Positions 28,829 to 41,403 of a stretch of 45,662 bases of DNA are shown here, piece after piece. The position numbers and the translations under genes are program-made. Position 1 is the stretch's first letter, and each line of letters begins with the position of its first letter. Location: positions 1-45,662 of the forward strand of contig NZ_JAMHIV010000053.1 in NCBI RefSeq assembly GCF_023897065.1, written 5' to 3'. This DNA comes from Crossiella sp. SN42. GTDB lineage: Bacteria > Actinomycetota > Actinomycetes > Mycobacteriales > Pseudonocardiaceae. The notes beneath the pieces were generated by a model. The model saw only the letters and a list, made by a program, of their open reading frames with translations, did no database searches and was not told the origin of the DNA.

Positions 28829-29761
28829 TTACGCGGTGGCCGCTCGCAGGCTGTCCAGCGCGTGCCGGACGTGCCCGCTGCTGGCCCGCAGCGCCTGGTT
28901 GGCCGCCGCGGTGTCCACCCCGGAGAGCAGGCACACCAGCGCGGTCTTCACCTCGCCGTCAGCGGCCAGCAGCGCCGCCGAACAGGTCTTCTCGTCCAGC
29001 CCGGTCGCCTCGCCGAGGATGACCAGCGAACGGCCGCGCAGCTTGGCGTTGGTGGCCTTCATGCTGACCATCAGGTTCGAGTAGGTCCGGCCCAGCCGCA
29101 CCATCACCGCGGTGGAGAAGGCGGTCAGCACCAGCTTCTGCGCGGTGCCCGCCTTCATCCTGGTGGAGCCCGCGATGGCCTCCGGCCCGGTGTCCACGGC
29201 CAGCCGCACGTCCACGTCCACCCCAGCGATCGCCGCGGGGTTGGCCGAGACCAGCCCGGTGCGGGCGCCCAGCCGCCGGGCCGCGGCCAGTGCGGAGAGC
29301 ACGAACGGGGTGCGGCCGGAGGCGGCCAGGCCGAGCACGAAGTCCTTGGGGGAGGCGTGTTCCTCGATCACCGCGGCCCCGGCCGCCACGTTGTCCTCGG
29401 CGTCCTCCACCGCCTGCCGCAGCGCGGCCGCGCCGCCGGCGTGGTGGGCCATGAACCAGTCCGGCGGGGTGCTGAAGGTGGGCACCAGCTCGGCCGCGTC
29501 CAGCGTGGCCAGCCTGCCCGAGGTGCCCGCGCCCACGTAGTGCACGCGGCCGCCCGAGCGCAGCGCCTCCACCGCGAAGTCCACCGCCCTGGCCAGCTCC
29601 GGCAGCACCTCCGCGACCGCGCCGGGCACCAGCTGGTCCTCGGCGTTGATCATGCGCAGCACGTCCACCGTGGGCAGCTGGTCGAGTTCGAGCGTGCGGG
29701 GGTTGCGGCGCTCCGTTGGCGAGTCCACCCGGACCGAGGGGCGCGGCTTGGGAAAGCTCAT
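28829..29761 (-). CDS. murQ: N-acetylmuramic acid 6-phosphate etherase
   Basis: 310 residues. Cleaves the lactyl ether of MurNAc-6-phosphate to GlcNAc-6-phosphate and D-lactate, the committing cytoplasmic step of MurNAc recycling. SIS-fold motifs are VHYVGAGTSGRLATLDAAEL (with the first catalytic Glu), VEDAEDNVAAG (second catalytic Glu region), GLAASGRTPFVLSAL and GSTRMKAGTAQKLVLTAF. The C-terminal helical segment contacts the partner in the dimer. Full length. Start overlaps the murR stop by 4 bases, so both are made from one mRNA. The C-terminal TAANQALRASSGHVRHAL is typical. Confidence 0.96.
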   Translation of the reverse strand: MSFPKPRPSVRVDSPTERRNPRTLELDQLPTVDVLRMINAEDQLVPGAVAEVLPELARAVDFAVEALRSGGRVHYVGAGTSGRLATLDAAELVPTFSTPPDWFMAHHAGGAAALRQAVEDAEDNVAAGAAVIEEHASPKDFVLGLAASGRTPFVLSALAAARRLGARTGLVSANPAAIAGVDVDVRLAVDTGPEAIAGSTRMKAGTAQKLVLTAFSTAVMVRLGRTYSNLMVSMKATNAKLRGRSLVILGEATGLDEKTCSAALLAADGEVKTALVCLLSGVDTAAANQALRASSGHVRHALDSLRAATA

Positions 29762-30693
29762 TTGCCGGTCTCCCGCTGACGGCGCCTGCCGTCGGGGCGC
29801 GGCCCGAGCCGGTGACCGCTGACCGCCTCGAAGGTGACCTCCAGGGCCGCCGTGGCCGACTCGTGGTGGCGCTGGGCCACCCCGACGAACAGGCAGTCGA
29901 TCACGGTGAGCTGGGCGATCCGGCTCGCGGTCGCCCCGGAGCGGAAGGTGGTCTCCCTGGCCGCGGTGGTCAGCACGTAGTCGGCGACCTCGGCGATCGG
30001 CGAGCGCGGGAAGTTGGTCAGCGCGACCGTGGTCGCGCCCCGGCCCCTGGCCACCCGCAGCGCCTCCACGGTGTCCGCGGTGGCTCCGCTGTGCGAGATG
30101 CCCACCGCGACATCGCCCTTGGACAGCACCGCGGCCGAGGTCAGCGCTATGTGCGTGTCGCTCCAGGCGAAGCTGATCCGGCCGATCCGGTGCAGCTTCT
30201 GCTGCAGGTCCATCGCGACGAAGGCGCTGGCGCCCACGCCGTAGACGTCCACCCGGCCCGCCGCTGACATCGCCTCCACGACCTTCTCCAGCTCGACCAC
30301 GTCCAGCTGGTCCGCGGTCTCCTCGACCGCGCGGGCGTCGGCGAAGGAGACCTTGCTGACCACCTGGCGCAGGTCGTCGCCCTGGCCGATGTCGCTGCCG
30401 AGGTCCCGGTCGGCACGGGCCGCGGTGCGCGCGGTGTCCGCGGCCAGCGCTATGCGCAGGTCCGGGTAGCCGCCGACGCCGATGGCCTTGCAGAAGCGGG
30501 TGACGGTGGTCTCGCTGGTGCCCGCGGCCTCAGCGACCTCCGTGATGGAGCGGTGCGCGACCACGGCGGGGTCGCCGAGCACCACCTGGGCCACTCGCTG
30601 CTCGGCCCGTGCGAGTCCCGGGAACAGGGAGCGGATCCGTACCAACGGACTCGCGTCAGCGATGTCCGGGGCCGAGCCAAGAGAAGAGGCCAT
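29758..30693 (-). CDS. murR: RpiR/MurR-family transcription regulator
   Basis: 311 residues. The N-terminal HTH_6 domain (about 15-90) contains ITEVAEAAGTSETTVTRFCK and AIGVGGYPDLRIAL. The C-terminal SIS domain (about 130-260) has DVYGVGASAFVAMDLQQKL and VAVGISHSGATADTVEALRVA, which bind a phosphosugar. In other bacteria MurR represses muropeptide genes and is released by MurNAc-6-phosphate. Coupled to murQ by a 4-base overlap. The -10 TAAGTT (30700-30705, minus strand) ends 6 bases before the ATG and overlaps a candidate MurR box, which would allow autoregulation. Confidence 0.92.
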   Translation of the reverse strand: MASSLGSAPDIADASPLVRIRSLFPGLARAEQRVAQVVLGDPAVVAHRSITEVAEAAGTSETTVTRFCKAIGVGGYPDLRIALAADTARTAARADRDLGSDIGQGDDLRQVVSKVSFADARAVEETADQLDVVELEKVVEAMSAAGRVDVYGVGASAFVAMDLQQKLHRIGRISFAWSDTHIALTSAAVLSKGDVAVGISHSGATADTVEALRVARGRGATTVALTNFPRSPIAEVADYVLTTAARETTFRSGATASRIAQLTVIDCLFVGVAQRHHESATAALEVTFEAVSGHRLGPRPDGRRRQRETGK

Positions 30694-30696
30694 GTC

Positions 30697-30710
30697 GGAA
30701 ACTTACTAAC
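30697..30710. promoter_or_regulatory. murR -10 region overlapping candidate MurR box C
   Basis: Plus strand GGAAACTTACTAAC preceded by TC. It contains the shared TCGGAAACT core and, on the minus strand, the -10 hexamer TAAGTT 6 bases from the murR ATG. A small palindrome CTAAC-A-GTTAG (30706-30716) adjoins it. Confidence 0.5.
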
Positions 30711-30795
30711 AGTTAGGCGGAGAATCAACAGGTCATCTGGTGTCTTCCTGCCGTCTCAACCCACTGTAACCCCGTTACTGGCGGATGTTGAGGAA

Positions 30796-30818
30796 GAACT
30801 TTCGGTAACTGAAAAAGG
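30796..30818. promoter_or_regulatory. Candidate MurR box A
   Basis: GAACTTTCGGTAACT followed by GAAAAAGG, an imperfect inverted repeat (TTTC with GAAA). Shares the T(C/G)GG(A/T)AACT core with boxes at murR and before nagZ, and the adjoining AAAAAGG also occurs at the nagZ site. Confidence 0.45.
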
Positions 30819-31138
30819 GCAAAATGTCACCGATGTCCTTCGATCGAACGACATCGCGGATTCATGTTCAGCCGCAGGTCAGGGCCGCTGGCCGGGACAT
30901 GGAATGTCAGATCTACCTTAAGTCTGCCAAGATCATCGGCTTGGTGCACACAATGCCCCGCCGGACTCCGTTCGGAGTAGTCGGCCAGCCGGATTAGGCC
31001 GTTCGTGACTCCGAATCGTTACGCCCCGGTGTCACCCCCGGGACCAGGGGTTGACGTGCCCGAACCCGTTCCGACACCGGTACGTGTTGTGCCCGGTGCG
31101 GACGGGTCCTGGAGAGTGGTGAGTGCTTCACCACATCG
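30819..31138. other. Intergenic region between the hydrolase gene and murR
   Basis: 320 bases without a recognisable gene and with lower G+C near murR. It holds the end of the hydrolase operon. GTGGTGA-GTGCT-TCACCAC (31116-31134) is a 7-bp hairpin directly after the hydrolase stop and may be its terminator. ACTCCG-TT-CGGAGT near 30970 is a short palindrome. Confidence 0.4.
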
Positions 31139-32878
31139 TCATCGGCTGACCGCGGTCCAGCCTCGCGCGGAGAGCTGTTCGGGGTGCCGTTCGCCGTCCA
31201 GCAGCAGGCCCCGGTGGTCGCTGACCCGGATGCCGTCCAGGAACACGCCCCGGCCGGTGTACTGCTTGTCGCTGGCGTAGCGCCAGCGCAGGGTCACCGA
31301 GGCGGCCTCGGGCAGCGTGGCGGAAACCCGCCACCAGGACCGGTGGCCCGAACCGGCCAGCGCGGTCACCGCCCCCTCCGGCGCGCCGGGACCGCTCGCG
31401 GTCAGGCTCAGCGGCTGCCAGCTCGCCCCGCCGTCCACGCTGGCCTCCACGGTCAGCTTGTCAGTGGCCTCGGTGTCGACGAACGCGCTGAAGCCCAGCC
31501 GGGCCGGGCCGCGCTGGTAGAGCGCCGGGCCGCGCAGCTCGGCGGACTGCTCCTCGTTGACTGCGGTGAACCAGGCCTCCGCGCCGTGTCTCGGCTTGAC
31601 CGCCAGCGACTGGGCGAAGCCCTGGGCCAGCGCGCGGCGGGCCGGGTTGTTCGAACCCCAGGCCCGGGAGGGGTGCACCCGGTTGGACAGCAGCACCGCC
31701 ACCGACCGGGACACCGGGTCGATGACCAGCGAGGTGCCGGTGAACCCGGTGTGCCCCGCGGTGCGCGGGCTGGACAGGCCCTCCATGTACCAGCGCTGGT
31801 CCAGCTCGAAGCCCAGGCCGTGCGCGTTGTCCGGGAAGCCGGTGTTGTGGTTGGTCATCATCTGCCGCAGCGTGCGCTCGCGCAGGATCCGGTGCCCCCG
31901 GTAGGTCCCGCCGTTGAGGATGGCCTGGCCGAGCACCGCGAGGTCGTCGGCGGTGCCGAACACCCCGGCGTGCCCGGCGACCCCGCCGAGGGACCAGGCG
32001 TTCTCGTCGTGCACCTCACCGCGCACCAGGCCGCGGGCCGGCACGGTCATGAACTCCGTGGCCGCGGTGCGCTCCTTGGCCGCCGGGTTGTAGCCGGTGT
32101 CCCGCATGCCCAGCGGCCCGGTGATCCCCTTGTGCACCAGCACATCGAGGGGGTCGCCGGTGACCTTCTCCACCAGCACGCCGAGGGCGATCAGGTTCAG
32201 GTCGGAGTAGATGTAGGCCTTGCCGGGCGGCTGCTGGAGCTTCGCGGTGAGCGCGCCCAGGATCCGGCTGGGCTTGTCCGGGTGGTCCCGCCACAGCGGC
32301 AGGAACGGCGGCAGCCCCGAGGTGTGCGTGAGCAGCTGCTCGACCGTGATCGCGGCCTTGCCGTTGGCCGCGAACTCGGGCAGGTAGCTGGCCACCGTGC
32401 GGGAGAGGTCCACCCGGCCGGCCTCGACCTGCTGCATCACCACGATCGAGGTGAACAGCTTGGAGATCGAGGCCAGGTCGAAGATCGTGTCGGTGCGCAT
32501 CGGCGCCTGCTGCTCGGGCGGCAGCTCGGTCCCGGCGGCGTCGGCGTAGCGCAGCGCCTGGCCGGTGGCGGTCCTGGTGACGATCCGCCCGTCGTGCACC
32601 AGCAGCGTCACCGCGCCCGCGAACAGCGGTTTCGCCGCGCCCTGCGGCTGCGTCCAGCCCCTGATCTTGGCCAGCGCGGCGTTGATCGGCGCCGGGTCCA
32701 GCCCCGCGCGCTCCGGGGCAGACTCGCGCAGGGTGGTCCAGGCGGGCGCGAAGCCCGGGTGCGGGCGGTCGAAGCGGCCGGACACCCCGCCACTGTCGCC
32801 CACCGGCCCGGCCGAGGCCGGTAGACCCGCGGTGAGCAGCGCGAGCAACAGCGCGGGCACGATCATCCGGCGACGCAT
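31139..32878 (-). CDS. Secreted serine hydrolase of beta-lactamase fold (AmiE/YbbE-like) with C-terminal beta domain
   Basis: 579 residues. Sec signal peptide (1-23, cleavage near ASA-G). The beta-lactamase/PBP4* domain (about 50-430) has SISK (Ser137/Lys140), YSD in AYIYSDLNLIALG, and HTG in TAGHTGFTGTSLVID. A beta-rich region of about 145 residues follows (FVDTEATDKLTVEASVDGGA, WRVSATLPEAASVTLRWRYA), likely for binding sugar or cell wall. In Bacillus, YbbE (AmiE) of this fold lies with nagZ and namZ and removes the peptide from MurNAc; position here argues for the same. A penicillin-binding or esterase role cannot be excluded. GGGAG precedes the ATG; 9 bases separate it from namZ. Confidence 0.85.
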   Translation of the reverse strand: MRRRMIVPALLLALLTAGLPASAGPVGDSGGVSGRFDRPHPGFAPAWTTLRESAPERAGLDPAPINAALAKIRGWTQPQGAAKPLFAGAVTLLVHDGRIVTRTATGQALRYADAAGTELPPEQQAPMRTDTIFDLASISKLFTSIVVMQQVEAGRVDLSRTVASYLPEFAANGKAAITVEQLLTHTSGLPPFLPLWRDHPDKPSRILGALTAKLQQPPGKAYIYSDLNLIALGVLVEKVTGDPLDVLVHKGITGPLGMRDTGYNPAAKERTAATEFMTVPARGLVRGEVHDENAWSLGGVAGHAGVFGTADDLAVLGQAILNGGTYRGHRILRERTLRQMMTNHNTGFPDNAHGLGFELDQRWYMEGLSSPRTAGHTGFTGTSLVIDPVSRSVAVLLSNRVHPSRAWGSNNPARRALAQGFAQSLAVKPRHGAEAWFTAVNEEQSAELRGPALYQRGPARLGFSAFVDTEATDKLTVEASVDGGASWQPLSLTASGPGAPEGAVTALAGSGHRSWWRVSATLPEAASVTLRWRYASDKQYTGRGVFLDGIRVSDHRGLLLDGERHPEQLSARGWTAVSR

Positions 32879-32887
32879 GGATCTCCC

Positions 32888-34156
32888 TCAGCGGTAGAGC
32901 AGGTACTGGGCGCGGTGCTTGCGGAACTCGGCCTGCTCCTGCGCGTAGGAGCCGACGATCTCCGCGGTGCCCGCGCCGCGGTCGACCATGTCCTTGAGCC
33001 GCTCGGTGCCCCAGAGCTTGTGGATGAAGTTGTCCGGCCGCCAGCCGAACAGCCCCGGGTACAGCCGCTTGGCCTCCACGATCATGGCCACCCCGGCCCG
33101 GATCGGGTCGAAGGCGCGCGGATCGGTGATGACCAGCTGCACGCCGCCGCAGCTGAGGTTGACGTGCTTGTTGAAGGTGGGCACGAAGTAGTTCTCGCGG
33201 AACACCACGCCGCGCAGGCCCAGCGCGTTGAGCGCCTCCGCCCACTTCCAGTCGATCTTGGGCAGGCCGATGGTCTCGAACGGCCGCGTGGTGCCCCTGC
33301 CCTCCGACAGCAGCGTGCCCTCGAACAGGCAGGTGCCCGGGTAGACCAGCGCGGTCTCCGGTGTGGGCATGTTCGGGCTGGGCGGCACCCAGGGCAGCCC
33401 GGTGCCGGCGAACAGCGTCTCCCGCCGCCAGTTCCGCACCTGGACCACGTCGAGCTGCTCGACCCGCTTGCCGGTCTCGGCGGGCAGGAAGGTGTCGTTG
33501 TACAGCCGGGCCAGCTCGCCCATGGTCATGCCGTGCCGCAGCGCGATCGGCTTGCGGCCCACCCCGGAGGCGTGCTTCGGGTCCAGCTGCGGGCCGTGCG
33601 CCTGGCCGCCGATCGGGTTGGGCCGGTCCAGCACCAGCACCGCCGCGCCGGTGAGCACGGCGGCGTGCATCGCGGTGTAGAGCATCCAGATGTAGGTGTA
33701 GAACCGCACCCCCACGTCGGCGATGTCGAAGACCACCACCTCGACGTTGGCCTTGCGGTACATCTCGGCCAGCTTCACCGCGGTCGCCCCGTAGGCGTCG
33801 TAGACCCGGACCCCGGTGCGCGGATCGTCGTACTCGCCCTCGGAGCCACCGGCCTGGGCGGTGCCGCGGAAACCGTGCTCGGGGCCGAACACGCCGACCA
33901 GGTTCACCGAACCCGAGGTCACCATGGCGTCCACCAGGTGCCCGAGCCCGTCGGAGAGCACCCCGGTCGGGTTGGTCACCACCCCGACCCTGCGCCCCTT
34001 CAGCTGCGCGAAGTCGTTGTCCGCCAACCGGTCCGCCCCGGTCCGCACCCGCCCCCGGCCGCCGCTCTCCGGCTCGGCCTGCGCGGATCCGGCGGTCAGC
34101 AGCGGCACCGACAGGGCCGAGGCGGCCAAGAAGCCGCGCCTGCTCACACCGTCCAT
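32888..34156 (-). CDS. namZ: Exo-beta-N-acetylmuramidase NamZ (DUF1343, GH171), Tat-exported
   Basis: 422 residues from the ATG at 34156, which has GGGAG 10 bases upstream. A GTG at 34177 overlapping the nagZ stop is an alternative start. The N-terminus VSRRGFLAASALSVPLL is a twin-arginine signal. Family motifs are LKGRRVGVVTNPTGVLSDG, VFGPEHGFRGTAQAGG (with a probable catalytic Glu), VFDIADVGVRFYTYIW and GLPWVPPSPNMPTPETALVY. NamZ (Bacillus YbbC) releases MurNAc from the non-reducing ends of peptidoglycan fragments, complementing NagZ, which releases GlcNAc. Both sugars then enter recycling. Sits between nagZ and the AmiE-like gene. Confidence 0.92.
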   Translation of the reverse strand: MDGVSRRGFLAASALSVPLLTAGSAQAEPESGGRGRVRTGADRLADNDFAQLKGRRVGVVTNPTGVLSDGLGHLVDAMVTSGSVNLVGVFGPEHGFRGTAQAGGSEGEYDDPRTGVRVYDAYGATAVKLAEMYRKANVEVVVFDIADVGVRFYTYIWMLYTAMHAAVLTGAAVLVLDRPNPIGGQAHGPQLDPKHASGVGRKPIALRHGMTMGELARLYNDTFLPAETGKRVEQLDVVQVRNWRRETLFAGTGLPWVPPSPNMPTPETALVYPGTCLFEGTLLSEGRGTTRPFETIGLPKIDWKWAEALNALGLRGVVFRENYFVPTFNKHVNLSCGGVQLVITDPRAFDPIRAGVAMIVEAKRLYPGLFGWRPDNFIHKLWGTERLKDMVDRGAGTAEIVGSYAQEQAEFRKHRAQYLLYR

Positions 34157-34173
34157 TGTGGAGTTTTCTCCCG

Positions 34174-35952
34174 TCACCAGCTGAGGCCGAAACCGAACGG
34201 GTACTTGGTCTGCGCCGGGTCGCCGACCACCGGCACGCTCACCGGCAGCTTGCCGCTGGGCGCGAGCTCACCGAAGAGCACCTTGGTCAGCGACTCCATC
34301 GACACCGCGGTGGTCGAGTAGGTGGTCAGCCAGGTCTTGGCGTCCTCGATGGCCACGTCGTACGGGTCCCGCACGGCCACCCCGACCACCGGCTTCCCGG
34401 TCGCGGCAAGGCGTTTGACCAGCTCCCGCTGCTGCGCGTCGGTGGTCGCCCGGTTGGTCAGCACCACGATGAGGTCCTGGCCCTCGGCGGCGGCCACCGC
34501 CTTGGCGATGGTCGCCTCGGTCGGCTTCTCCCCGGTGACCTGCACCGTCGGCGTCACCCCGCGCGCGGCCAGCCGCGGCGCGAGCGCGTTCGCCGTGCTC
34601 CAGCCGGTGACCAGCACCTTGCCGGGCTTGGTTTTCAGCGGCAGCAGGTTCGCCTCGTTGCGCACCGCGGTCACCGTGCGGTCGGTGATCCGCTGCGCGG
34701 TGGCCAGGTGCTCGGGGATGCCCACGATCGAGTCCACCTTGGACTCATCCACCAGCGGGTGGGTCAGCGCGCCGCGCTTGAGCTTGAGCAGCAGCACCCG
34801 CAGCAGGCTCTCCTCGATCCGCCGCTCGCTGATCTCCCCGCTGCGCACGGCCTTGAGCACCGCGTTGATCGCCACGTCCAGGTTCTTCGGCATCAGCAGC
34901 ACGTCCACGCCCGCCTTGAGCGCCATCACCGGGATCTCGGCGTCGGGGTGCTTGAGCCGCACCGCCTCCATCTGCAGTGAGTCGGTGATGATCACCCCGC
35001 GGTAGCCGAGCTTGCCGCGCAGGGTGTCGGTGAGCATCTTCTTCGACAGCGTGGCCGGCTCACCCGAGTCGTCCAGCTTCGGCGTCACGATGTGCGCGCT
35101 CATGATCGAGTCCACGCCCGCCTTGATCGCGGCCTGGAACGGCGGCGCGTCCAGCGCGGCCCACTGCTCCGGGGTGTGGTTGATCTCCGGCAGCACGTAG
35201 TGGCTGTCCTGGTTGGTGTCGCCGTGGCCGGGGAAGTGCTTCACCGTGGCCGAGACGTTCTGCCCGAGCCTGCCCTGCTGGTAGCCCTTGACCTGCGCGG
35301 TCACCTGCTGCGAGACCAGCTTCGGGTCGCTGGAGAAGCTGCGCACCCCGATCACCGGGTTGGCCGGGTTGACGTTGACGTCGGCATCCGGCGCGAAGTT
35401 CTGGTTGATTCCGACCGCGCGCAGCTCCCGGCCGGTGATCGCGGCGGCCTGCCTGGCCAGTTCGGTGTCCCTGGTCGCGCCCAGCGCCATGCTGCCGGGG
35501 AACAGCGTCGCAGGCGAGCCGAGGCGGGTGACCACACCCTGCTCCTGGTCGGTGGAGATCAGCAGCGGCAGCCGCGCCCCGCTGCTCATCGCCGCCCGCT
35601 GCAACCCGTTGGACAGCGCGGCGACCTGCTTCGGGTTGACGAAGCTGTCCGTCCAGTTGAAGTAGATGACCCCGCCCAGGTGGTACTTGCGCACCACCTC
35701 CGCCGGGGTGTCCACGCCGAACTCGGTCCGGTTCTTCGGGTGCGGCGAGTCCGCGTTCGGTCCGTAGGCGTAGGTGACGAAGAGCTGCCCGACCTTCTCC
35801 TCCAGGGACATGCCGCGCATCCGCGCCGCCGCGGCCTGTTCCCCGGTGGCCTGCGCCGAGTCCGGTGCCGCGCTCGCGGGGAAGACCCCCATGACGGTGA
35901 CCGCGGTCAGCGCCGACAGCGCCGCCGCGAGGGGCCGGCGTACCTGGTGCAC
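34174..35952 (-). CDS. nagZ: Secreted beta-N-acetylglucosaminidase NagZ (GH3)
   Basis: 592 residues, two-domain secreted form like Bacillus YbbD. Signal peptide 1-29 (ASAA). GH3 barrel with KHFPGHG...DSH (238-251), whose Asp/His pair acts as general acid/base in the NagZ subgroup, and nucleophile Asp324 in GVIITDSLQMEAV. A C-terminal alpha/beta domain (about 400-592) has VLVTGWSTANALAPRLAARG. Removes GlcNAc from muropeptides. GTG start with GGGAGG upstream. An inverted repeat and MurR-like box (35974-36000) lie just before it, so nagZ-namZ-hydrolase may have its own promoter besides read-through from the ABC genes. Confidence 0.95.
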   Translation of the reverse strand: MHQVRRPLAAALSALTAVTVMGVFPASAAPDSAQATGEQAAAARMRGMSLEEKVGQLFVTYAYGPNADSPHPKNRTEFGVDTPAEVVRKYHLGGVIYFNWTDSFVNPKQVAALSNGLQRAAMSSGARLPLLISTDQEQGVVTRLGSPATLFPGSMALGATRDTELARQAAAITGRELRAVGINQNFAPDADVNVNPANPVIGVRSFSSDPKLVSQQVTAQVKGYQQGRLGQNVSATVKHFPGHGDTNQDSHYVLPEINHTPEQWAALDAPPFQAAIKAGVDSIMSAHIVTPKLDDSGEPATLSKKMLTDTLRGKLGYRGVIITDSLQMEAVRLKHPDAEIPVMALKAGVDVLLMPKNLDVAINAVLKAVRSGEISERRIEESLLRVLLLKLKRGALTHPLVDESKVDSIVGIPEHLATAQRITDRTVTAVRNEANLLPLKTKPGKVLVTGWSTANALAPRLAARGVTPTVQVTGEKPTEATIAKAVAAAEGQDLIVVLTNRATTDAQQRELVKRLAATGKPVVGVAVRDPYDVAIEDAKTWLTTYSTTAVSMESLTKVLFGELAPSGKLPVSVPVVGDPAQTKYPFGFGLSW

Positions 35953-35973
35953 CGTTGCCTCCCTGGTCAGATC

Positions 35974-36000
35974 GAGTTTGGGAAACTCTTCACAAAAAGG
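35974..36000. promoter_or_regulatory. Candidate MurR box B upstream of nagZ
   Basis: The perfect inverted repeat GAGTTT-GGG-AAACTC (35974-35988) contains TGGGAAACT and is followed by TTCACAAAAAGG. The core and the AAAAAGG flank resemble box A near murR. Confidence 0.5.
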
Positions 36001-36056
36001 ACTGGATTGCCTGCAAGTTACTGACGTGATCTGGACGGGTCAACGCCCGTACGGCC

Positions 36057-36914
36057 TCATTTGAACCCGGTCTGCGCGATGCCCTGCACGATTTGCCGCT
36101 GCATCAACAGGAAAACCACCAACACGGGTGCCATTGTCACCACACTCATCGCCAAGATCAGGTTGGTCGGGACCACCTCCTCCGCGGCGAAGCGCGCCAG
36201 CGCCACCTGCAAGGTGTACGTGTGCTCGTCCTGGGCCACCACCAGCGGCCACAGGAAGTCGTTCCACCGCCACACCACCGAGAAGATCGCCACCACCGCC
36301 AGCGCCGGGCGGCACAGCGGCAGCACCACCCGCAGGAAGATCCGCGGCTCCCCGGCCCCGTCGATGCGCGCCGCCTCGATCAGCTCATCCGGGATGGTCA
36401 GCATGTACTGCCGCAGCAGGAACACCCCGGTCGGCGTGGCCACCGCCGGGATGATCAGGCCCCACAGCGAGTTCACCAGCCCCAGGTCGGCCACCACCTG
36501 GTAGACCGGGATGAAGATGACCTGCAACGGCACCATGATCGTGCCCAGGATGACCAGGAACAGCGTGGTCCGGCCGCGGAAGTTGTACTTGGCCAGCGCG
36601 TAGGCCGCCATCGTGTTGACCACCAGCGTCAGCACCGTGGCCGCCACCGTGACCAGCACGCTGTTGCGCAGGTAGATGACGAAGTTGAAGCGGCCCAGCG
36701 CGTCCACGTAGTTGTCCGGCCGGAAGCTCTCCGGCAGCAGCCGCGGCGGCCGCAACGCCAGCTCGGTGCTGGTCTTGAACGAGGACAACACCGTCCACAC
36801 CACCGGCGCCAGCACCACCAGCGCCAGCGCGACCAGCCCCGCGTAGGCGAACACCCGCCCCACCGCAGGCGCGGGCCGCGCACCCACCCCGGTCCAGCGC
36901 GGCGGCCTGCTCAC
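36057..36914 (-). CDS. Sugar ABC transporter permease (MalG/CUT1 type)
   Basis: 285 residues from the GTG at 36914, overlapping the other permease stop by 4 bases. Six predicted membrane helices. The EAA loop EAARIDGAGEPRIFLRVVLP contacts the ATPase. The N-terminal pattern (FAYAGLVALALVVLAPVVWT, then SSFKTSTEL) is typical of the second CUT1 permease. Last gene of the importer; a 104-base gap with a regulatory repeat leads to nagZ. No ATPase gene is present, so a shared MsiK-type ATPase is expected, as in other actinobacteria. Confidence 0.93.
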   Translation of the reverse strand: MSRPPRWTGVGARPAPAVGRVFAYAGLVALALVVLAPVVWTVLSSFKTSTELALRPPRLLPESFRPDNYVDALGRFNFVIYLRNSVLVTVAATVLTLVVNTMAAYALAKYNFRGRTTLFLVILGTIMVPLQVIFIPVYQVVADLGLVNSLWGLIIPAVATPTGVFLLRQYMLTIPDELIEAARIDGAGEPRIFLRVVLPLCRPALAVVAIFSVVWRWNDFLWPLVVAQDEHTYTLQVALARFAAEEVVPTNLILAMSVVTMAPVLVVFLLMQRQIVQGIAQTGFK

Positions 36915-37747
36915 ACCGCCTCCCTGCGCCGGGCCAGCCCGAACTGCACCAGCGTGACCAGCAGGATCACCAGGAACAACAGCACCGACCCGGCCGAGGC
37001 CAGCCCGTAGCTCACCGGCGGCTCGAACCCGCGCTGGTAGATGTACTGCACGATCAACGTGGTCGCGCCCAGCGGACCACCGCCGGTGAGGCTGTACAGG
37101 AAGTCGAAGGACTGGAACCCGGCGATGGTGGCCAGCACCAGCACCACCAGCGTGGTCGGCCGCAACAACGGCACCGTGAGCAGCCGGAACCGCTGCCAGG
37201 CCCCGGCCCCGTCCAGCGCGGCCGCCTCGTGCAGGTGCGGATCGATCGCCTGCAACCCGGCCAGCAGGATCAACGTGTAGAAGCCCAGGTGGATCCACAC
37301 CCCGACACCGACCGCGGCGACCATCGCCAGCACCGGGTCGACCAGCCAGCCGCGCCCCTCCAGCAGCCAGCCCCACACCAGGCCGACCACCACCGGGGAG
37401 AGCACCATCGGCAGGAAGAAGGTGGCCCGGAAGAACCCCTTGCCGCGCAGCCGCCGGTTGAGCAGCACCGCCAGGCCCAGCGCGGCCAGCACCGAGATCA
37501 GCACGTAGGCCAGCACGAACACCACCGTGTTCTGCACCGCGGCCCAGAACTGCTCATCGGAGAGCAGCCGCCGGTAGTTCTCCAGGCCCACCGGGCGGAA
37601 GGTGCGGCCGTTGCGGCTGTCGTAGAAGCTGATGTTGACGCTGTTCAGCGCCGGGTAGATGGTGAAGACCCCGAAGATCAGCAGGTTCGGCAGCAGGAAC
37701 AGGTACGGCGCGAGCCGCTGCCCCCACCCGACCCGCCGTCCGATCAC
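36911..37747 (-). CDS. Sugar ABC transporter permease (MalF/CUT1 type)
   Basis: 278 residues with six predicted helices, starting near APYLFLLPNLLIFGVFTIYP. The EAA loop is HEAAALDGAGAWQRFRLLTV. It pairs with the MalG-type permease encoded next. Start overlaps the binding-protein stop by 4 bases, giving strict order and coupling. Together they would move MurNAc, GlcNAc-MurNAc or a related amino sugar across the membrane; that substrate is inferred from the flanking genes. Confidence 0.93.
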   Translation of the reverse strand: MIGRRVGWGQRLAPYLFLLPNLLIFGVFTIYPALNSVNISFYDSRNGRTFRPVGLENYRRLLSDEQFWAAVQNTVVFVLAYVLISVLAALGLAVLLNRRLRGKGFFRATFFLPMVLSPVVVGLVWGWLLEGRGWLVDPVLAMVAAVGVGVWIHLGFYTLILLAGLQAIDPHLHEAAALDGAGAWQRFRLLTVPLLRPTTLVVLVLATIAGFQSFDFLYSLTGGGPLGATTLIVQYIYQRGFEPPVSYGLASAGSVLLFLVILLVTLVQFGLARRREAV

Positions 37748-39042
37748 CGCCCACTGACCTCCGCATGCGCTTGCTCACTCACCGCGCGCACGGTCCGCGC
37801 CGCGTCATCCGGCGAGCTCCGCCCGGCCAGCATCTTGCCGACCTCGTCCCGCAACGCGTTCGCGGTGCGCACGAACGCCGCGGAGGAGTTCGTCGTGTAC
37901 GCCTCCGCGGGCACCAGTTTCGCCTCGGCCAGGAAGACCCGCATGTCGTCCACCCGCTCCGGATAGCTGATCCCCGGGGTCACCAGGTCCTTGCGGGTGG
38001 GCAGGAACTGGGCCTTGGCCGCCAGCTCCCGCTGCCGCTGCGCCCCGTTCATCCACTCGATGAACGCCACCGCCGCCGCCGGGTGCTTGGCCTGCTTGAA
38101 CGAGACCATGAACTTCCCGCCGGGGAAGCCGCCGCACCGCGCCGCACACGGGTTCGGCGCCGCCGCCCAGCGGAACTGGCTGGTCTTGGCGAACTGGCTG
38201 ACCTGCCAGTTCCCCGACAGGTACACCGGGGCGTGCTGGGCGAGGAAGATCTCGTTGGCGCCCTTGTACCGGGTGCCGGACTCCAGCCAGAAGTCCGTCG
38301 GCATCGAACCCCTGGCGTGCAGCTCGGCGAACAGCTTCAACGCCTCCGCCGCCCGCTCCACCGCCAGCGCGGGACGCCCCTCCAGGTCGAAGAAGGTGGT
38401 GCCGAACTGGCTGAGCATGGTGGAAAGGCGGTGCCCCGACTTGTCCATCGCGATGGCGTACGGCGTGCCGGTCGCCTTGCGCACCTTCTCCGCCGCGTCC
38501 ACCAGCTCGGTCCAGGTCCACCGCTCCGGCACCGGCACCCCGGCCTTGGCGAACAGGTCCAGGTTGACGAACGGCCCGTTCAGCGTCAGGTCGCTGGGCG
38601 CGCCGAGGAACTCCCCGCCGGGACCGCGCACCGCACGGGCGGCATCGGGCAGGAACGCCTCCGGGAAGGTCGGATCGGCCAGGTAGGGCCGCAGGTCGAG
38701 CAGGTCCGCGCGGTAGGGGTTGAGGTCCTGGGTGCGCGCCACGTCGGGGGCGTTGCCGCCGGAGATCCGCGCCTGCAGCGTGCGCTCCAGATCGGCGTAG
38801 GCGACCAGCTGCAGGTTCACCCGCGCGCCGGTGGCCACCTCGAACTTCTCAATCGTTTGCCGAGTCGCGATCTCATCGGCCCCGTCGGTGAAGTACAGGT
38901 AGTCCAGCTCCACCCCGCGCAACTGGTCCGGACTCGCCGGCCGGGCGTCGGTGGGCGCGGTCGCCTCAGGCACGCCCGGCGCGCAGGCGCACAGCACGAG
39001 CAGCACCACGAACAGGGCGCCGATCCCGCGCACCGACCGCAT
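37744..39042 (-). CDS. Sugar-binding lipoprotein of ABC transporter
   Basis: 432 residues from the ATG at 39042 (GGGAGG upstream). Lipoprotein signal with lipobox LCAC near residues 17-20. The mature part is a family-1 solute-binding protein: QTIEKFEVATGARVNLQLV, LERTLQARISGGNAPDVART, GAPSDLTLNGPFVNLDLFAK and YLSGNWQVSQFAK. Many tryptophans and tyrosines, as for sugar ligands. First gene of the importer operon. It likely captures MurNAc or small muropeptides released by NagZ, NamZ and the hydrolase. Confidence 0.92.
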   Translation of the reverse strand: MRSVRGIGALFVVLLVLCACAPGVPEATAPTDARPASPDQLRGVELDYLYFTDGADEIATRQTIEKFEVATGARVNLQLVAYADLERTLQARISGGNAPDVARTQDLNPYRADLLDLRPYLADPTFPEAFLPDAARAVRGPGGEFLGAPSDLTLNGPFVNLDLFAKAGVPVPERWTWTELVDAAEKVRKATGTPYAIAMDKSGHRLSTMLSQFGTTFFDLEGRPALAVERAAEALKLFAELHARGSMPTDFWLESGTRYKGANEIFLAQHAPVYLSGNWQVSQFAKTSQFRWAAAPNPCAARCGGFPGGKFMVSFKQAKHPAAAVAFIEWMNGAQRQRELAAKAQFLPTRKDLVTPGISYPERVDDMRVFLAEAKLVPAEAYTTNSSAAFVRTANALRDEVGKMLAGRSSPDDAARTVRAVSEQAHAEVSGR

Positions 39043-39526
39043 ACCGCCTCCCCCAGTCCCACCTGTCGTGGCGGACGCTAGAGAAGCCGCGGCGGTTGTG
39101 GCTACGCCCATCCGAGCGGTGTCCCCCGAATTCCGTTTTCCTTCGAACGCGATGGTGGCGCCCAACGGCTTCCGCCGAGGGCGCCACCAACTGCGTGAAC
39201 AGTCAGGTTACCAAGCGTGCATCTCGTGTCGTACAAACCTGAGCTCGACGTCCGGCGTCCCGGTACGTAGCCCCTAGACGACAAGCCTCCCGCGGCGTGC
39301 TGCGCGTGGGTGCCCGCTGTTCACGCACGGAGCCCAGTGGGGTGGCTGGTACTTCTCTTCGTATCAGCCCTGGCCAGTTGAGGTCCGCACCTCCATGTGT
39401 AGTCCGTGAGGGCGGTCACAGCAAGGGCTCAGACGGGTGCACCGTTTCAGAGCCGGGGATAAACGGAAGGTGTCGGACACCAGGCCCGTTGCGGCCCTTC
39501 CGGCCGAGGTCAATCCCCGAGGCGGA
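39043..39526. promoter_or_regulatory. Leader and intergenic region before the ABC importer
   Basis: 484 bases with no gene recognised. A long hairpin lies at 39153-39189: TGGTGGCGCCC pairs with GGGCGCCACCA, with an inner CGGC-TTCC-GCCG stem. In the importer mRNA it would be a leader structure or attenuator. On the minus strand TAACCT (39205-39210) is a possible -10 and overlaps TTGGTAACC, a weak match to the MurR box. GGTGTC-G-GACACC (39469-39481) is a short palindrome after the HAD gene stop. Confidence 0.45.
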
Positions 39527-40381
39527 TCAGTCGCCGAACTCAGTATTGCCGCCCCGCCCACGCCGGTGCCGCCGTATCCCGTACCAGGCCGCACCCGCCG
39601 CCGCGACCACCCCGAGCCCCACCGCCGCGGCCGCCACCGTGGTGCCCGAAGGCGTCGGGATCCGGGCCCGCAACGACACCGGATCGGAGAAGGTCAACAC
39701 CGGCCAGCCCCGCTGCGCGGCCAGTTTCCGCAGCGCACGGTCGGGGTTCACCACCGTCGGATGCCCCACGGCCTCCAGCAGCGGCAGATCGGTGATCGAG
39801 TCGGAGTACGCGTGACAGGCGCTCAGGTCGTACCCGTGCACCTCGGCCAGCTCCCGCACCGACACGGCCTTGTTCTCGCCGTAGCAGTAGAAGTCGACAT
39901 CTCCAGAGTAGCGACCCTCGGTAACCACCATCCGGGTACCGACCGAGTGCGTCGCCCCCACCATCTTCGCGATCGGCGCCACGATCTCCGCGCCAGAAGC
40001 GGACACGACCACCACGTCATGCCCCTCCTGCTTGTGCTCCCCGATCAGCTGCGTCGCCTCGGCGTAGACCAGCGGATCGACGATGTCGTGCAAGGTCTCG
40101 TCCACGATCGACCGGACCTGCTCCACATCCCACCCGGTGCACAACGCGGTGATGTGCGCCCGCATCCGGTCCATCTGGTCCGCATCCGCCCCAGCCAGCA
40201 TGAACACGAACTGCGCGTACGCGCTCTTGAGCACCGCCCGCCGATTGATCAACCCCTCCTGGAAGAAGGGCCTGCTGAAGGCAAGCGTGCTGGACTTCGC
40301 GATAACCGTCTTGTCCAGGTCGAAGAACGCGGCAACCCGCTTGCCAGCAGCGCTGATGCCATTGCCACGAGGTTCGGTCAC
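39527..40381 (-). CDS. HAD-IB family phosphatase with C-terminal membrane anchor
   Basis: 284 residues from the GTG at 40381 (VTEPRGNG); longer in-frame starts exist upstream but add residues unlike the family. HAD motifs are AAFFDLDKTVI (nucleophile Asp), VVVVSASGAEIV (motif II), and GENKAV and YSDSITDLPLLEAVG (motifs III and IV). A C-terminal helix (about 250-272: VAAAAVGLGVVAAAGAAWYG) and basic tail anchor it. SerB-like fold; proposed substrates are phosphorylated lipids or small molecules, but none is shown. It corresponds to Rv3661, also beside ssd and the 6C RNA. TATGCT ends 6 bases before the GTG. Confidence 0.88.
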   Translation of the reverse strand: MTEPRGNGISAAGKRVAAFFDLDKTVIAKSSTLAFSRPFFQEGLINRRAVLKSAYAQFVFMLAGADADQMDRMRAHITALCTGWDVEQVRSIVDETLHDIVDPLVYAEATQLIGEHKQEGHDVVVVSASGAEIVAPIAKMVGATHSVGTRMVVTEGRYSGDVDFYCYGENKAVSVRELAEVHGYDLSACHAYSDSITDLPLLEAVGHPTVVNPDRALRKLAAQRGWPVLTFSDPVSLRARIPTPSGTTVAAAAVGLGVVAAAGAAWYGIRRHRRGRGGNTEFGD

Positions 40382-40482: not shown

Positions 40483-40570
40483 GTCCGGCTGAGCCGGATG
40501 AGTTCAGTCCGACCCCCCGGGGCTGAACTCCTGACGACCCCCGTCCCTCCCCCCTGGCGGGGGTCGTCCC
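40483..40570 (+). ncRNA. 6C small RNA
   Basis: Two adjacent hairpins whose loops carry runs of six C. The first is GAGTTCAG (40500-40507) with CTGAACTC (40523-40530), loop containing ACCCCCC. The second is GACGACCCCCG (40533-40543) with CGGGGGTCGTC (40558-40568), loop containing TCCCCCC. This is the defining structure of the actinobacterial 6C RNA (B11 in M. tuberculosis), located there too between the ssd gene and the HAD gene. 6C RNAs pair with G-rich ribosome sites of target mRNAs and affect growth and DNA replication or secretion genes. The second hairpin also acts as terminator. Confidence 0.88.
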
Positions 40571-41403
40571 ATGTCCGGACCCGGTTCCGCACAGTGACCA
40601 CCCAAGTCACTCCCCAACTTGCCAGAACCCGGCCCCCACCGCACACTCGCGCCCCGCGCCCCGCGCCCCGCGCCCCGCGCCCCGCTGCGCCGCCTGACGT
40701 CACGCCGCGCTCCTGCGCCCGCCGTGCCTCACCACCCAGCGCCCCCGGCGCGTCTAGCCGCAGGCCGCCGTCACCACACGACGCGGCTCATCGCCCCGCG
40801 CTTCGTCACCGCCAGACCAACCGCCCCGTCACCACACCCGACCTGCCCCGTCTCACGCCACCACCGCCCCCGCCGCCTGCCATCACCCGCCTGCTTCACC
40901 CCGCCGCACGGCCCACCTAGCCTGCCCTGCCGCACGCCATCACCCCGCGGCCTCGCCCCACCGCCCGCCGCCCGTCCCGCACGCGCCCTCACCCGCGCCG
41001 CATTCGCCTACCCAGCGCCGCCCCCTCCCGTTCCGCCCTCCTGCTGCACCCGCCCCTCCTGCTCCGCTCCGCCCCTCCCGTTCCGCCCCTCCCGCCTCGC
41101 CTCGCCCTGCCTCGCCCTGCTCGGCCCCCATCCCGCCCCACCTCGTCCTGCTCGGGCCCCTCCCGTCTCGCTTCGCCCCACCCCGCCACCTCTCTCTGCC
41201 GCCCGCCCGCGCGCGAGGGGATCCCCCACTTCCAGCCTGCCCCATCCCACGCCCCCAACCAGCCAAAACCCCCTCCAAGATCGCGACTTATCCCCAACGC
41301 CCCACCTATCCACAGCCCCCACCCCACGCGCTGGATCCCACCCCCCAACCCCCGCCACGGTGGACCCACACCCGCAACCCGCGGCACCACCCCAGGGGGA
41401 CAC
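40571..41403. repeat. C-rich, G-poor low-complexity intergenic region
   Basis: 833 bases with no credible gene. C far exceeds G on the plus strand (for example, about 10 G in 41041-41100, most of the rest C and T). It includes five tandem GCGCCCC heptamers (40649-40683) and degenerate repeats of the kind CCGCCCCTCCCGTTCCG (about 41040-41175). Open frames here on either strand have repetitive, low-complexity translations. A GGGGGA ribosome site for ssd lies at its right end. Confidence 0.8.

Follow-up and report, generated by a model that had tools for sequence, protein, structure and literature searches.

In Bacillus subtilis the ybb cluster brings together murQ, murR, murP, amiE, nagZ and ybbC, according to the accessible part of PMC5061867, where MurQ and MurR of Streptomyces coelicolor are placed at SCO4305–4308, MurP is missing, and a murQ mutant is reported to accumulate N-acetylmuramic acid (MurNAc) 6-phosphate. 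Tannerella forsythia uses a MurT–MurK–MurQ route in which unphosphorylated MurNAc is imported and then passed to a MurNAc kinase and MurQ, MurT being a transporter family of Bacteroidetes (accessible parts of PMC7670621 and PMC10465942). A 2026 preprint, as far as its accessible part goes, describes MurQ-dependent use of MurNAc in Mycobacterium smegmatis and proposes that mycobacteria take the sugar up through an unknown transporter (PMC13041923). Because a murQ mutant of S. coelicolor accumulates MurNAc-6-phosphate without a MurP and the mycobacterial transporter is unknown, the route of MurNAc import and phosphorylation in MurP-less actinobacteria still looks open. Titles and abstract openings listed by searches of the open-licence literature on transporters and kinases of the pathway contained neither a pairing of the kinase AnmK with a symporter nor a CUT1-type importer for MurNAc, which is not proof of absence. 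Here we analyze a 45,662-nucleotide contig of Crossiella sp. SN42 (NZ_JAMHIV010000053.1; hereafter the window) that carries a muropeptide locus of eight genes, all on the minus strand: those for a solute-binding lipoprotein and permeases F and G of a CUT1 ATP-binding cassette (ABC) importer, followed by nagZ, namZ, an amiE-like gene, murR and murQ. A sequence-only reading of the window had suggested that it may show a poorly described actinobacterial route, with the ABC importer in place of MurP; the ABC importer is not, however, the general route of the family.

On balance, and with modest confidence, we favor the view that the locus is a ybb-type scavenging block of Pseudonocardiaceae, that genes located elsewhere supply its MurNAc-6-phosphate, and that the CUT1 importer was added in Crossiella. 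This view is built on gene content, synteny, co-occurrence, linkage and conservation of promoter motifs, from which we infer all substrates, the succession of events and the sharing of an ATPase. The exported AmiE-like, NagZ and NamZ proteins would remove peptide, N-acetylglucosamine (GlcNAc) and MurNAc from cell-wall fragments. The (anhydro)MurNAc would be imported by a sodium:solute symporter and phosphorylated by AnmK, the two being encoded side by side on another contig, while free MurNAc would probably be phosphorylated by a BadF-family kinase of the MurK/NagK type; MurQ would then turn MurNAc-6-phosphate into GlcNAc-6-phosphate, with MurR as the likely regulator. The CUT1 importer would be a later arrival in the Crossiella lineage, placed between the Ms1 RNA gene and the nagZ promoter, and would take up a sugar released by the neighboring hydrolases with the help of an ATPase borrowed from another operon.

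The source genome (G000) encodes AnmK on a contig other than the window (G000:C7:30771-31871; PF03702, 325.8 bits against a cut-off of 24; NF007146, 527.5 against 440), and directly downstream of it lies a 507-residue sodium:solute symporter, whose membership in the SSF family was confirmed and whose closest solved relative is 5nv9. By eye, the pair (L127, G000:C7:29106-31871) is located between SMC-like and FtsY-like genes. At first we considered the symporter to be MurT-like, a reading that we abandoned. Within a set of 150 Pseudonocardiaceae genomes, counted without regard to relatedness, murQ scored above the cut-off in 130 and AnmK was found in 124, every one with murQ, and the symporter was present in 127 of the 130 murQ genomes versus 0 of the 20 without murQ. 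As to linkage, the symporter follows AnmK on the same strand and within 500 bases in 118 of the 124 genomes, the exceptions being a genome with the two genes on different contigs and AnmK near a contig end (G035), one with a gap of 537 bases (G147), and four with gaps of 1.2 to 2.3 kb (G042, G075, G098 and G118). In G042 the order is murQ, AnmK, an amidohydrolase (NagA-like) and then the symporter, and in G138 a BadF kinase, murQ, AnmK and the symporter stand in a row. The murQ genomes without the symporter are G011, which is 74% complete, G048 and G073. The murQ match of G048 comes from a contig (C298) with low third-position GC, where one open reading frame (ORF) has both BadF and MurQ matches; this contig is probably contamination, and the genome was still counted as murQ-positive. 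The ORF itself (L116 8790-10499), with 569 residues and matches to both BadF kinase and MurQ, is possibly a natural kinase–etherase fusion. Six genera vary in the presence of murQ, and in four of them (g5, g35, g37 and g42) the symporter varies along with it. Judged by these patterns of co-occurrence and linkage, AnmK and the symporter are the best candidate for the route supplying MurQ with MurNAc-6-phosphate in Pseudonocardiaceae, and the occurrence of the symporter with murQ, together with its position next to AnmK, makes the question of import testable in the family by a single deletion.

The unlinked kinase predicted from the window alone thus has two counterparts in the genome, AnmK on C7 and a BadF kinase of the MurK type on C14. 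The latter contig carries two BadF-family kinases. One adjoins a GH4 gene and permease-like genes (L014 9617-15479), a group similar to the Streptomyces chitosan operon. The other, of the MurK/NagK type (C14:145438-146319), is 44–50% identical to kinases from two other genera whose genes adjoin one for a SIS protein and, in one of the two genera, also one for a GntR-UTRA regulator. Among its solved relatives are 8zo3, a MurNAc/GlcNAc kinase, and 8ow9, a MurNAc kinase of T. forsythia, and it is probably a BadF kinase of this kind that handles free MurNAc. The residues associated with MurK specificity failed to separate the kinases in alignments, the position before the catalytic Asp being Asn in 8zo3 and Thr in human NagK. 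With a threshold of E < 1e-10, placed at a gap in the match list, BadF-family matches were found in 128 of the 130 murQ genomes versus 4 of the 20 others. No MurP-type EIIBC fusion of the phosphotransferase system (PTS) was found in the source genome: its sole EIIC match has 431 residues and no EIIB, which is encoded by a separate 98-residue ORF, and we therefore rejected the candidate of a MurP-type PTS supplying MurNAc-6-phosphate from elsewhere.

The CUT1 importers of Streptomyces share the ATPase MsiK, and the sequence-only reading had expected a shared MsiK-like protein here as well. The ATPase must indeed come from outside the window, but none of the five best matches in the genome is a free-standing MsiK-like ATPase. 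The UgpC cut-off of 432 bits was passed by two ATPases, and three more scored 377–409; each of these five best UgpC/MalK-type proteins adjoins its own permease pair, the top-scoring one being SugC-like (1e-157). Sharing of the ATPase with another operon is likely, the ATPases at C14:106534 and C41:15867 being candidate partners.

That the importer was added to an older block is suggested by comparison of loci across the family. We read 36 loci from other genera, one of which (L112) is cut off before nagZ. In the remaining 35, the order NagZ, NamZ, AmiE, MurR and MurQ is the same as in the window, and no CUT1 match was found at 1e-8 in any of the 36. In contrast, each of the five Crossiella genomes in the set has the lipoprotein gene at the muropeptide locus (the window and three other loci were read, and G086 was judged from coordinates), and a search of further genome contigs gave a sole locus, that of Crossiella sp. 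S99.2, with a lipoprotein 85% identical. As the 35 loci hold the block without the ABC genes, the nagZ-namZ-amiE-murR-murQ block is common to Pseudonocardiaceae and the importer appears to be an insertion of the Crossiella lineage, its three genes standing between a HAD-IB gene and nagZ. For the same reason we rejected the ABC importer as the MurNAc importer of the whole family. The claim that it stands in place of MurP holds only in part, as it is not the family's replacement for MurP.

Conserved noncoding elements flank the site of insertion. The interval after the HAD gene contains a block of about 310 bases conserved over 37 aligned intergenic sequences, in the window at 39150..39459 on the minus strand, between the HAD gene and the gene for the binding protein. 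No Rfam family matched the block; the accessible part of PMC9130861, which lists Crossiella, includes a HAD-IB hydrolase and a beta-acetylhexosaminidase among the annotations flanking Ms1, and on this agreement of synteny the block is a probable Ms1 RNA gene. Downstream, the 104-base interval from permease G to nagZ retains a probable nagZ promoter, TTGACC-N17-TAACTT (36015..36043, minus strand), whose pattern stands ahead of nagZ in 19 of the 39 loci compared and in 15 of the 35 outside Crossiella, L103 included. A scan of 30400–39700 for consensus promoters gave no site, so the assignment of this promoter rests on conservation. Just before the start of murR lies a conserved promoter/operator-like motif, TTAGTAAGTTTCC (30697..30709, minus strand), and GTAA[CG]TT is found at this place in 36 of 39 loci, 32 of the 35 outside Crossiella. 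The window has exactly two copies of the variant AGTAASTT (0.09 expected), one ahead of nagZ and the other at murR, the motif having been picked after viewing the sequences. As the motif shared by nagZ and murR is absent upstream of the lipoprotein gene, no common control of the ABC genes with these two is visible. The idea that they plainly belong to the MurR regulon or form a single operon with nagZ is weakened by the promoter that nagZ keeps and by the missing motif.

Lipoprotein homologues occur in 14 of the 150 family genomes, five of them Crossiella and nine others (45–60% identity), and one of the latter is informative about the possible cargo. In a tree of 19 binding proteins, those of Crossiella group with both copies from G006 (97/96), one of which forms a long branch and is less surely placed. 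The G006 genome lacks a murQ over the cut-off as well as NamZ, AnmK and the symporter, yet it has Ms1, the binding protein and nagZ in a row, with only 3 bases separating the last two, followed by the usual downstream genes. Within the clade of Crossiella and G006 it is thus nagZ, not murQ, with which the importer seems to be associated, and this favors GlcNAc or a GlcNAc-containing product as the transported sugar. The lipoprotein's solved relatives are mixed sugar binders (best E 8e-17) and indicate no ligand, and its structure prediction was too poor for use (mean pLDDT 42).

We read the murQ regions of 18 of the 66 murQ-positive genomes from other families of the order, picked for score, nearby AnmK and diversity and not at random, and found a CUT1 importer near murQ in 5. 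Two of these (G239 and G245) have the arrangement MurR, MurQ, binding protein, permeases F and G and BadF kinase, and the others are G215, with NamZ and AmiE, G161, with NagZ, a SIS protein and an amidohydrolase, and G297; the Pfam scan of these CUT1 binding proteins covered those of G239, G161 and G297. The binding proteins of 4 of the 5 regions group apart from those of Crossiella in the tree, with long branches flagged, and the recruitment of CUT1 importers near murQ thus looks independent of that in Crossiella. Elsewhere among the 18 we found a PTS EIIBC (G315) or EIIBCA (G216), oligopeptide-type ABC genes (G196, G203 and G155), the symporter (G302 and G186), and a BadF kinase between AmiE and MurR-MurQ (G153). 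In the remaining regions no importer was recognized, by eye only, as a partner of murQ. The neighborhood comparison that had been proposed from the window alone cuts both ways, with no CUT1 importer in the 35 loci of other genera and CUT1 importers near murQ in other families, twice with a BadF kinase.

These regions lend some support to the possibility that MurNAc enters this organism through the ABC importer, which then feeds an unlinked MurNAc kinase and MurQ. The importer genes adjoin nagZ-namZ-amiE in every Crossiella genome, unrelated CUT1 importers stand near murQ in the five regions and not in any of 36 controls at the same threshold, and a MurK-like kinase is present in the genome. 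We nevertheless regard this explanation as doubtful: the symporter–AnmK pair tracks murQ and Crossiella has the pair, the ABC genes are not at the locus in the other genera read, a related binding protein adjoins nagZ without murQ in G006, and the ABC genes lack the upstream motif of nagZ and murR. Our preferred view, with supply from outside the locus, extends to a broader proposal to which we lean only slightly: that the symporter with AnmK is the missing (anhydro)MurNAc importer of MurP-less Pseudonocardiaceae, and that the MurQ pathway has repeatedly switched importers within the order, these appearing as PTS EIIBC, as symporter with AnmK, as oligopeptide-type ABC with AnmK and as CUT1 ABC with BadF kinase, the insertion in Crossiella being one more such addition.

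Several observations weigh against the view we favor. Two of the genera that vary in murQ have it without the symporter, g3 through G048 with its probable contaminant contig and g39 through G073, and three genomes (G037, G078 and G119) have murQ and the symporter without an AnmK match. The latter suggest that the symporter can carry a substrate of some other kinase, free MurNAc being the simplest choice. The known substrate of AnmK is anhydroMurNAc, and free MurNAc would need another kinase, our candidate for which is a guess; the ABC importer and the symporter could also both carry MurNAc. Only 2 of the 66 murQ genomes from other families of the order have the symporter, both with AnmK and murQ nearby. 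It is a solution of this family, not general across the order, and import in most other families must be explained otherwise; there, other importers are found near murQ. On the side of the importer, the evidence from G006 comes from one genome, with a binding protein without visible permease and a site at the start of a contig. In addition, 7 of the 8 importer homologues outside Crossiella and G006 have, after permease G, a gene for a conserved protein of about 880 residues (beside L119, L120, L121 and L123–L126 but not L122), and two examples of this protein gave no Pfam match. Given this neighbor, another sugar is probably the cargo of the importer family at large, and we have lowered the weight of GlcNAc as cargo and our overall confidence and raised the weight of the explanation considered next.

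An importer for an unrelated sugar could have been inserted downstream of the Ms1 gene by chance. The homologues at 44–51% identity located elsewhere, 7 of 8 directly beside the protein of about 880 residues, the promoter motif that nagZ keeps as its own, and the mixed specificities of the lipoprotein's solved relatives would all fit. Such an origin appears unlikely to us, as the arrangement has been retained in five of five Crossiella genomes, in a second genus (G006) the gene of a related binding protein immediately precedes nagZ at this very site, and the protein of about 880 residues has no match in the Crossiella loci read or in the G006 loci. Taken as an addition to the scavenging block, the importer may most plausibly carry GlcNAc or a GlcNAc-containing disaccharide, a leading candidate that falls short of an even chance; MurNAc and something else are possible cargoes of lesser and equal weight.

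The gene set itself was confirmed with Pfam and NCBIfam, the labels of the AmiE-like protein and NagZ being the weaker ones. The Pfam scan covered 30 of the 40 called ORFs, the ten remaining, mostly short, lying outside it. MurQ, the MurNAc-6-phosphate etherase (28829..29761; this and the following genes on the minus strand), passes the curated equivalog threshold (NF003915, 370.7 bits against a cut-off of 168; TIGR00274, 306.2 against 302) and matches the solved MurQ 4s12 at 4.8e-73. The RpiR/MurR-type regulator murR (29758..30693) overlaps the murQ start, is linked to murQ across genera and encodes HTH_6 and SIS domains; MurR/RpiR models of NCBIfam score best, yet under their own cut-offs. 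The AmiE/YbbE-like serine hydrolase (31139..32878; PF00144, Beta-lactamase, 235 bits), with an export signal by eye, has PBP4B as its top NCBIfam model (191.6 against a cut-off of 385). It is a serine beta-lactamase-family hydrolase by family membership, for which the role of an amidase is putative; the label AmiE is our assumption, made from synteny. The exo-beta-N-acetylmuramidase gene namZ (32888..34177), which we take to be equivalent to ybbC of B. subtilis, encodes a Tat-like signal by eye and NamZ_N and NamZ_C domains each above the cut-off (PF07075, 237 bits; PF20732, 173 bits). The GH3 beta-N-acetylglucosaminidase gene nagZ (34174..35952) encodes an export signal and a KHFPGHG..DSH loop, both by eye, and N- and C-terminal GH3 domains (PF00933, 302 bits); it scores 172.3 bits against a cut-off of 207 for NF003740, and B. 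subtilis YbbD/NagZ (3bmx) is among its solved relatives (2e-92). The MalG-like permease G (36057..36914, PF00528, start per gene call), the MalF-like permease F (36911..37747, PF00528, 64 bits) and the solute-binding lipoprotein (37744..39042, PF13416 or SBP_bac_8, 107 bits, lipobox by eye) provide the binding protein and the two BPD_transp_1 permeases of a CUT1 importer. The claimed absence of a kinase and an ABC ATPase was borne out in the 30 scanned ORFs, where no sugar kinase, PTS protein or ABC ATPase scored over the Pfam cut-off. A T2SSE secretion ATPase of the window has a sub-cut-off ABC_tran match (20.3 against 25) and weak P-loop kinase-like matches, and two ArsA-type ATPases are not ABC. 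Two further features of the window are a 6C RNA (40498-40572; RF01066, 74.1 bits) that lies upstream of the HAD gene and recurs in 5 of 6 other loci scanned, and a phage-type integrase gene (512-1861) adjoining a tRNA gene, like the edge of an integrated element.

Compared with the known systems, the Crossiella locus resembles B. subtilis ybb in having the same five gene functions beside a transporter, and differs in the lack of murP, a MurP-type EIIBC having been found neither here nor elsewhere in the genome, in the unlinked position of the kinase and the likely transporter, and in the added ABC importer. The importer resembles the CUT1 systems of Streptomyces powered by MsiK, in which no ATPase accompanies the binding protein and the two permeases, but lacks a free-standing MsiK-like partner among the five best matches. 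As in T. forsythia, the proposed route consists of unphosphorylated import, a kinase and MurQ, whereas here a sodium:solute symporter and a CUT1 ABC importer stand as candidate transporters. A parallel in MurQ and MurR without MurP is S. coelicolor SCO4305-4308, for which the accessible part of PMC5061867 names no transporter or kinase, whereas in Pseudonocardiaceae co-occurrence now points to a candidate pair.

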